Origin: Sphingomonas horti
Lineage (GTDB): Bacteria > Pseudomonadota > Alphaproteobacteria > Sphingomonadales > Sphingomonadaceae
DNA: 64,000 nucleotides
Direction: 5' to 3'
Assembly (NCBI RefSeq): GCF_009753715.1
Contig: NZ_WQMS01000007.1
Span: 134,001 to 198,000 of the forward strand
The translations under genes and the position numbers were made by a program. Position 1 is the stretch's first letter, and each line of letters starts with the position of its first letter. Under the pieces are notes generated by a model. That model was not told the DNA's origin, did not search any database, and saw only the letters and a list, made by a program, of their open reading frames with translations. Below, piece by piece: positions 44,672 through 45,958 of the stretch.

Positions 44672-45157
44672 ATGTTCGACCTGCCCGCCGTCTCCACGAT
44701 CGCGCAGACAATCCAGCTGGCGATCGCGCCGGTCTTCCTGCTGGCGGGGATCGGGGCGATCCTGAACGTGCTCGCCGGCCGGCTGTCGCGAGTGGTCGAC
44801 CGCTCGCGCGTGCTGGAGCAATTGCACGCGAACAGCGAAGGCGAGGAGCATCAGCGCTATGTGCGCGAGCTCCGGATCGTCGACCGGCGCATGCGCCTCG
44901 CCAATGCCGCGATCGCACTGATCGTCGCGAGCGCGATCGTCGTCTGCTCGCTGGTCGCCTTGCTGTTCATCACCCAGCTCGCCGGCCTCGCCTTCCGCGT
45001 GGCGGTGGCGGTCGCGTTCGTGCTCGGCATGGTGCTGCTGGTCGCCGGGTTGGTGCTGTTCCTGATCGAGATCAATCTGGCGCTCAGCTACCTCTACGTC
45101 CGCGAAGAGCTGCTGGAGCGCGAGGAACGGAACTGGCGGCGCACGCACCCCAAATGA
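44672..45157 (+). CDS. DUF2721 membrane protein
   Basis: 161 aa with three membrane helices (about 12-36, 75-97 and 100-130) and conserved basic loops (RLSRVVDRSRVLE, RELRIVDRRMRL). DUF2721 is widespread in proteobacteria with no known function. Its stop overlaps the T-run of a minus-strand terminator. Confidence 0.88.
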   Translation: MFDLPAVSTIAQTIQLAIAPVFLLAGIGAILNVLAGRLSRVVDRSRVLEQLHANSEGEEHQRYVRELRIVDRRMRLANAAIALIVASAIVVCSLVALLFITQLAGLAFRVAVAVAFVLGMVLLVAGLVLFLIEINLALSYLYVREELLEREERNWRRTHPK

Positions 45158-45190
45158 AAAAGGTTGCCGGGCCTGAAAGACCCGGCAACC
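45157..45190 (-). terminator. Rho-independent terminator on the minus strand
   Basis: Stem GGTTGCCGGG / CCCGGCAACC (10 bp, 9-nt loop) followed on the minus strand by five T residues. No T-run follows on the plus strand, so it serves minus-strand transcription and ends on the last base of the DUF2721 gene. Confidence 0.9.
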
Positions 45191-45244
45191 CCTTACATGG
45201 TCAGCGGCCGGAAGGCCGCCCGGAAGCCTATAGGCTGCAGCCCT

Positions 45245-45301
45245 TCAGGCGCGCAGCTCCCGAACGGACTTGACCGACCTCTCTGCTGAACCATGAGACA
45301 T
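45245..45301 (-). CDS. 18-residue ORF behind an extended Shine-Dalgarno
   Basis: Reads MSHGSAERSVKSVRELRA. The leader AAAGGAGGTGATCC (45303-45316) complements 14 consecutive nt of the 16S rRNA 3' end and sits 7 nt from the ATG (measured from GGAGG). Such full complementarity is rare. The peptide could be a short functional or leader peptide, or the site could act mainly in binding the 30S subunit. Only the signal, not the coding sequence, supports it. Confidence 0.5.
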   Translation of the reverse strand: MSHGSAERSVKSVRELRA

Positions 45302-45448
45302 CGGATCACCTCCTTTCGCTGTTGAAGCCAATGTGCACCGGCTGGTGCACGAGAGGAATGTGAATCGCGGCGAATCGCCGATCAAGACTTGAAAAGAAAA
45401 ATTAATTGCGCGAGTCTGGTTGGGTTGCGCTGCTTCGCCGCCGAAGCA

Positions 45449-45958
45449 TCAACGGCAATCCTCGATCACGCGCGAGACTTCGGGCCAGGCCGGCACGATC
45501 GCCCACTGCCCGCCCGCCACCAGCATGAAGCGCCCGCGGCTGAAGGCCATCTGGTCGAGCAGCGGGTCGCGCGTCGCGAAATCGACCTCCAGCCCCGCCT
45601 CGCTGCGCCCCGCCGCGCGCGGCGTGGCGGCATCGGTGGTGCGGATCGTGAGCGGCCCGGCGGCGGCGGTCGCCCAGATCAGGCGCACGCGCTGCGCCGC
45701 ATGGTCGCAACGCATGACCAGCACCGGCTTCATGCCGGCCTCGCCATAAGCCGCTTCGGTGTGGGTGCCCGCCCGGCGATAGCTCCAGTCACCCGGCGTC
45801 AGCGGCGCGTCGCGCCAGGCATCGCCCTGCGGAACGGGCGGCGGCGCCGGAGCGGGCGTGCGCGGAGGCGTCGGAACCGGCTCGGGCGGTGGCGCCGGAC
45901 GGTTCGGCGCCACGCACGCGGAAAGCATCAGAAGTGAAAAGCCGATCGCCCGCCGCAT
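45449..45958 (-). CDS. Putative lipoprotein
   Basis: 169 aa. Signal and lipobox MRRAIGFSLLMLSAC with Cys at 15, then a Pro-rich spacer (about 16-45). The globular part has GDWSYRRAGTHTEAAYG and a C-terminal VSRVIEDCR. It resembles small sphingomonad lipoproteins with no known function. The stretch upstream of the start is short and shows nothing special. Confidence 0.78.
   Translation of the reverse strand: MRRAIGFSLLMLSACVAPNRPAPPPEPVPTPPRTPAPAPPPVPQGDAWRDAPLTPGDWSYRRAGTHTEAAYGEAGMKPVLVMRCDHAAQRVRLIWATAAAGPLTIRTTDAATPRAAGRSEAGLEVDFATRDPLLDQMAFSRGRFMLVAGGQWAIVPAWPEVSRVIEDCR

Follow-up and report, generated by a model that had tools for sequence, protein, structure and literature searches.

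Organization of the locus

The window analysed here is a stretch of 64,000 nt from a contig of Sphingomonas horti, and the element under study lies on its minus strand, between a lipoprotein-like gene upstream on the same strand and a gene for a DUF2721 protein that converges on it. Its parts and neighbors, in window coordinates, are the following.

45449-45958, minus strand: lipoprotein-like gene, upstream neighbor on the same strand, outside the RNA
45380-45385, minus strand: possible -35 hexamer TTGATC, 17 nt 5' of CACATT
45357-45362, minus strand: possible -10 hexamer CACATT; GATTCACATT in four of five genus sequences
45350-45157, minus strand: whole element, 194 nt, with hairpin, Shine-Dalgarno (SD) sequence, ATG, 18 codons, TGA, GC-rich hairpins and terminator
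45333-45350, minus strand: 5' hairpin GTGCACCAGCCGGTGCAC (GTGCACC-AGCC-GGTGCAC), found in the genus only
45303-45316, minus strand: extended SD AAAGGAGGTGATCC, a 15-nt complement of the 16S tail if the G at 45317 is included
45301-45299, minus strand: ATG start, 1 nt after the 14-mer
45245-45301, minus strand: 18-codon ORF MSHGSAERSVKSVRELRA with TGA stop at 45247-45245; length kept in relatives
45285-45295, minus strand: 5' arm of helix P1, CATGGTTCAGC, covering codons 3-6
45234-45257, minus strand: weak stop-codon hairpin, GCTGC/GCAGC, 5 pairs; longer in many relatives
45242-45205 (within), minus strand: GC-rich palindromic repeats, read from the sequence
45205-45218, minus strand: P3 hairpin CGGCCTTCCGGCCG, read from the sequence and coincident with a stem of Rfam family RF01867
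45196-45205, minus strand: 3' arm of P1, GCTGACCATG, directly 5' of the terminator
45157-45192, minus strand: intrinsic terminator with U-run at 45161-45157, from a hairpin-plus-T scan and the fold
44672-45157, plus strand: DUF2721 gene, convergent neighbor (PF11026, E 6.3e-34)

Re-reading of the sequence bore out both the positions and the nature of the hairpin, the 14-nt 16S complement, the 18-codon ORF, the palindromes and the terminator that a preliminary description of this DNA had named. The DUF2721 gene ends exactly where the terminator U-run ends (45157), and the lipoprotein-like gene, which returned no Pfam match, ends at 45449. A simple promoter/terminator scan of the window listed no site at the locus. 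At the putative -35 position, TTGATC recurs in the relatives' loci L002 and L004, and L003 carries TTGTTT. A set of 104 relatives was drawn from 149 loci with distinct cores, excluding ORFs longer than 40 codons, short stretches and near-duplicates (>90% identity). In this set, a terminator-like hairpin is present in 98 sequences, and -10-like hexamers peak at -28 to -26 from the SD (25 sites at the three positions), with a second peak of 10 sites at -8 that may only reflect the AACAAT-like leader; the candidate -10 of the window, at -46, lies upstream of the main peak.

By tblastn, 47 of 149 loci have the lipoprotein-like gene upstream (a few places were counted twice), which would fit the view that the element is merely the 3' end or terminator of that gene's transcript. 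However, the remaining loci gave no match to the gene, though their flanks are short, and the -10-like peak just upstream of the SD holds across the class, so that we regard this view as highly improbable. DUF2721 is found beside the RNA, among the 149 loci, just in the own genome (twice) and in the genus relative L003; L002, L004 and L005 stood outside that set. In some relatives, tmRNA or small SRP RNA genes lie nearby (L122:2877-3186, L110:1703-1799 and L055:1193-1289). An origin from a mobile element was considered and rejected, as a distant-mode search of 72,556 plasmid records gave no match and the exact core pattern occurred in none of the viral contigs searched. The putative mini-mRNA is a chromosomal gene, ordinary but little understood.

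Distribution among genomes

The preliminary description had made its case depend on conservation outside this strain, and such conservation was found. A nucleotide search matched in 20 of 40 genomes, the own one included. Of 149 genomes surveyed in the window's family, 131 carry the core pattern and none the reversed one. The description's reading of the element as a mini-mRNA gains support from the same surveys, given that some 90% of the family genomes sampled have the RNA, with an NTG start, an ORF of nearly fixed length and a terminator. The covariance model R1 retrieved 123 of 197 genomes in a draw from the order; counted from the listing, these comprise 122 of the 136 members of the window's family (among them the own genome, and G436 only at E 8e-4) and one weak match (E 0.004) among the 61 genomes of other families. 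None of the order's other families carried the RNA at a convincing score, in contrast to most genomes of the window's family.

In the class draw R1 matched 106 of 387 genomes, and in the phylum draw 75 of 299, all within the class. According to a pattern search under identical draw settings, the phylum draw holds 113 genomes inside the class and 186 outside, which gives 75/113 against 0/186 for R1; the core pattern itself occurred in 48 of the 299, again all in the class, and the reversed pattern in two. Misses in these large scans do not prove absence, because stricter filters were used. One pattern, derived jointly from the window and a Bradyrhizobium-type locus, yielded 51 named records, 43 from Bradyrhizobium and eight from sphingomonads (Sphingosinicella, Sphingomonas, Croceibacterium and others). 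The core of Sphingomonas changbaiensis (L237) equals that of G005, a genome of the window's genus; this genus probably includes the species.

Two forms of the RNA, of the CATGG and the CATTG type, were observed side by side within at least seven genomes of the family (G016, G051, G456, G927, G975, G410 and G417), which suggests duplication and divergence.

The extended Shine-Dalgarno sequence

The 14-mer AAAGGAGGTGATCC is the sole site in the window at up to two mismatches (expected mean 0.21, with at least one site in 18 of 100 shuffles), and in the own genome one exact copy, at this locus, was found together with one single-mismatch site elsewhere. As near-identical cores occur in other genera, the SD and core are not a product of chance. 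The 16S rRNA of a genome of the same family (L061) ends in GGCTGGATCACCTCCTTTCT, and inclusion of the G at 45317 therefore lengthens the match to 15 nt. In the own assembly (G000), the 16S 3' end GGATCACCTCCTT was not found apart from the mini-mRNA locus, so that the tail of the family relative was used; the own rRNA 3' end seems to be absent from the assembly or not displayed. Judged by this complementarity, the mini-mRNA could grip the ribosome unusually tightly.

The full length of the complement is not indispensable, since L083, L093 and L019 carry a 1-nt deletion within the SD extension (GATCC to GACC), with the 18-codon frame kept as far as can be judged by eye; the same deletion explains why these three loci escaped the pattern searches.

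Masking of the SD by the ORF (a helix 'P2', GAUCC:GGAUC) was evaluated and rejected as a general feature, because the predicted ensemble gives the SD, its extension and the AUG no more pairing than shuffled downstream sequence does. A 7-nt complement of the own SD end, G-U pairs allowed, occurs in 21 of 104 ORFs against 7.9 expected with swapped ends, and GGAGGTGATCC against the ORF fell within the best 5% of shuffles for 21% of the 104 sequences. A GATCCAG subgroup, in which such masking may occur, supplies most of the complements (12 of 28 against 1.4 expected). In members of this subgroup such as L048, L051 and L125, a CTGGATC in the ORF matches a portion of the 16S 3' end exactly and is complementary to the SD end.

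An RNA with a 15-nt complement of the 16S tail might also act as a decoy that binds small subunits and withholds them, and co-sedimentation with 30S subunits is reported for the Bradyrhizobium RNA rreB discussed below. A decoy, however, would have no need of an ORF of set length, and a single gene copy would have to yield very much RNA; from the sequence features we judge this role decidedly unlikely.

Conserved helices

The single-sequence fold of the window RNA exceeded shuffles in stability by a wide margin (z -6.15), much of it contributed, by eye, by the terminator, and P1 appeared in neither the minimum-energy nor the centroid fold of this RNA alone. In five genus sequences, the 5' hairpin is paired in 34 of 35 cells, with two-sided changes at three of its seven pairs, compared with at most 46% pairing in slid versions.

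P1 emerged from comparison. Alignment A2, which also underlies model R1, retained 30 of 43 sequences (L029 with its long ORF, 11 further loci and L020 were dropped). RNAalifold on this MAFFT alignment returned P1, with 93% of the cells in its seven pairs paired and two-sided changes in five of the seven, figures that lean toward P1 because some of the dropped rows had a weak P1. Alignment-free tests were made on the 104 sequences, independently of the 30-row selection. After exclusion of the six without a terminator-like hairpin, 72 of 98 carried, beside the terminator, five nucleotides able to pair with their own codon-3 region, where 11.8 were expected with arms of other types and 1000 permutations gave a mean of 26.2 and a maximum of 37. 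At least six contiguous Watson-Crick pairs were possible in 60 of 104 sequences against 13.9 expected. The sole Bradyrhizobium-type sequence of the set, L127, has no P1 of the usual kind.

In sphingomonads, the stop-codon hairpin reaches at least five contiguous pairs in 32 of 53 sequences (11.9 expected with swapped arms) and at least seven in 14 of 53 (1.2 expected), and it is weak in the window's own genus. Both P1 and the stop-codon hairpin covary in relatives. P1 is confirmed and extended here rather than discovered, as the consensus of RF01867 already holds it.

The open reading frame

Among the 19 distinct cores from the first nucleotide search, 17 had an ORF of 18 codons, one of 19 and one of 23; the first core pattern missed L019 and L020. 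Sphingomonad ORFs of the GATGTCTCATGG type, 52 of them distinct in the loci retrieved, comprised 18 codons in 43 cases, 19 in seven, 20 in one and 15 in one, and stops in the other reading frames are scattered. Pairwise counts of silent to replacement changes, uncorrected for tree or stem constraints, were 846:2419 in frame versus 1107:2164 and 1418:1828 in the shifted frames; replacements exceed silent changes in all three frames, and only the ratio differs. Within codons 6-18 of the 43 ORFs with 18 codons, variation is greatest at second positions and smallest at third positions, and the conserved codons are in many cases ones that lie in stems.

As the length is nearly set while the share of replacements exceeds that of the shifted frames, selection seems to act on the length of the ORF and not on its peptide. 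Of the peptide conservation that the preliminary description had proposed to check, the length is retained and the amino acids drift, and its suggestion that the SD drives strong expression of a short peptide is left unsupported, the peptide sequence bearing no sign of purifying selection and rreB (see below) being reportedly translated only weakly. A frame that keeps its length and drifts in sequence speaks against a functional peptide and would be easier to reconcile with translation as the event that counts.

That the 18-residue peptide is nevertheless the functional product appears quite unlikely to us. Its start, stop and length are conserved, and an N-terminal MSHGS and a C-terminal HYR recur in many relatives; yet codons 2-5 coincide with P1 and show almost no variation, wobble positions included, the last codons track the covarying stop hairpin, the share of replacements stands above that of shifted frames, and the peptides of other lineages look unlike by eye.

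In two class relatives, the ORF directly behind the extended SD runs to 58 codons (L029) and 56 codons (L138), compared with the usual 14-32, and its start resembles a signal peptide. In L141-L144, L180, L182 (25-26 codons) and L184 (30 codons), the ORFs have an EQPS/EQPL motif in common, and its DNA (like GGAGCAGCCTTC) is possibly an internal anti-SD.

Matches to Rfam families

The first Rfam scan, at gathering scores, returned no match. At an open threshold, positions 1-159 of the RF01867 (CC2171) model align at 45324-45161 with 45.7 bits (E-value 1.3e-8 on 351 nt and 2.9e-8 in the genome), the second-best place in the own genome scoring 29.3 bits, so the earlier statement that no matching family was known gives way to a full-length match, albeit one below the gathering score of 75 bits. 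By Rfam's own cut-off rule the window RNA is not a listed member of RF01867, and with its score under that limit it represents a divergent branch. The cut-off was passed by seven of 18 relatives' loci scanned, including L021 from a genome of the same family, and L039 also lies above it. L127 of the Bradyrhizobium type (44.5 bits) and L177 of family f29 (44.7 bits) align with the model over its length and below the cut-off. In 14 named control genomes, matches were found in Caulobacter vibrioides and Deinobacterium chartae, one of the two over the cut-off. Other candidates were dismissed: ftsZ-DE (25.8 of 72.2 bits) and two ctRNA families in the window are far below their cut-offs, and BjrC1505 on L039 is at chance level (24 bits, E 0.51).

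Rfam types CC2171 as 'Gene; sRNA', and the window RNA has a terminator of its own, both of which favor a base-pairing sRNA that would act on other mRNAs, with the ORF as a side feature or a second function. Against this stand the SD-start block as the most conserved stretch and the conserved length of the ORF, and on these sequence grounds such an sRNA seems unlikely.

Zymomonas is presumably a relative of the sphingomonads. In the parts of two papers on Zymomonas sRNAs that were available (PMC6970203, PMC7064620), no mention of CC2171 was found; the former places its Rfam hits in the supplement. Elsewhere, the Rfam 15 paper (PMC11701678) counts CC2171 among the families to whose structure one covarying pair was added, and a further paper (PMC5596092) tabulates CC2171 for an sRNA candidate from Mesorhizobium huakuii.

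A proposed mode of action

We propose that the locus may encode a stand-alone mini-mRNA, which represents the CC2171 and rreB/rreR kind as its branch in sphingomonads, and that this RNA is locked by its structure and gated by the ribosome, and in which translation matters and not the product; from the sequence evidence, we hold this reading to be about evenly poised between right and wrong. A transcript of about 190 nt would end at its own terminator. Base pairing between the extended SD and the single-stranded 16S tail could keep a 30S subunit bound, as is said to happen with rreB. P1, whose covariation was observed, would lock codons 3-6 to the stretch before the terminator, starting at +7, a position within the mRNA channel of the initiating ribosome, and in many relatives the stop codon also lies within a covarying hairpin. 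A fully paired SD extension that ends 1 nt before the AUG should moreover slow settling in the P site. The AUG could then enter the held 30S subunit only once the SD duplex and P1 had partly melted, and translation would open both. The initiating ribosome would read the set number of codons and open the helices on its way, and selection may favor not the peptide but this passage through an ORF of set length, in other words a change in the RNA's shape or lifetime that the ribosome gates.

It is tempting to go one step further and to see in this mini-mRNA a class-wide gauge of initiation-competent 30S subunits, in which each round of translation would reset the shape and lifetime of the RNA and thereby report or buffer the availability of ribosomes. 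This sensor reading is speculative, and we consider it doubtful. If it were true, it would unite the Rfam 'sRNA' CC2171 with the rreB/rreR mRNAs, and would bring together an SD of maximal strength, start-proximal codons and a stop closed by covarying helices, and an ORF selected for its length and not for its sequence.

Comparison with known systems

In leader-peptide attenuators such as trpL, a terminator follows a short ORF that has an SD, and the window RNA is alike in this order of parts. The next gene downstream, in contrast, is the convergent DUF2721 gene and not a gene on the same strand, for which reason the attenuator or leader-peptide reading was rejected: a regulated same-strand gene directly downstream, as a transcription attenuator would require, is lacking.

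The likeness to CC2171 extends over the full-length alignment, the SD block, the UGUCUCAU start region, P1, the inner hairpins and the terminator. P1, which joins the start region to the pre-terminator stretch in RF01867, is present in the window RNA by alignment and differs in sequence, with CAUGGUUCAGC/GCUGACCAUG and a bulge as opposed to CAUUGUC/GACAAUG in the Rfam family. CC2171 is, as far as seen, described by Rfam without an ORF, whereas the window RNA has one of 18 codons. Common descent is favored by the same succession of parts, by the covariation of P1 and by the finding that at least seven genomes of the family contain both forms, and the relationship of the window RNA to CC2171 is close to certain.

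Hahn et al. are said to have described in 2017 (RNA Biol) the Bradyrhizobium rreB as an mRNA of 165 nt that has an SD of 17 nt and a GTG-started ORF of 14 residues, weakly translated and bound to the 30S subunit as judged by co-sedimentation, as well as rreR of the Rhodobacter lineage with 18 residues. The start codon reportedly affects the stability of these RNAs, which are said to have been searched for by at least 16 nt of complementarity to the 16S 3' end. The window RNA falls short of that length with 15 nt, measured with the 16S tail of a family relative, and shares the extended SD, the short ORF directly behind it (ATG 1 nt past the 14-mer) and a short transcript, predicted in our case. 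Loci of the Bradyrhizobium type show the features described for rreB: L187 has a 17-nt SD complement, measured against a sphingomonad 16S tail, and a GTG ORF of 14 codons, and L191 (Bradyrhizobium, by eye), L127 and L146 are like it. They differ from the window in the 17 nt and GTG instead of 15 nt and ATG, in 14 instead of 18 residues and, for L127, in the missing usual P1. GTG ORFs of 18 codons were read in all five loci of family f29 (L129, L130 and L177-L179), which at a guess belongs to the Rhodobacter lineage. A literature search found no paper that combines three of the terms CC2171, rreB, rreR, Bradyrhizobium and Caulobacter crescentus, which is weak evidence, Hahn et al. 2017 not being covered by it.

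The window RNA is likely related to rreB/rreR. L127, with the ORF type of L187, and L177 both align with RF01867 over its length. We infer that CC2171 and rreB/rreR are of one kind. Some 90% of the genomes sampled from the family, and more than a quarter of those sampled from the class, retain this RNA, which has no assigned role as far as seen. Viewing an Rfam sRNA and rreB/rreR together, with a constraint that seems to fall on length and not on peptide, raises a question that can be put to the test: does translation itself serve as the signal?
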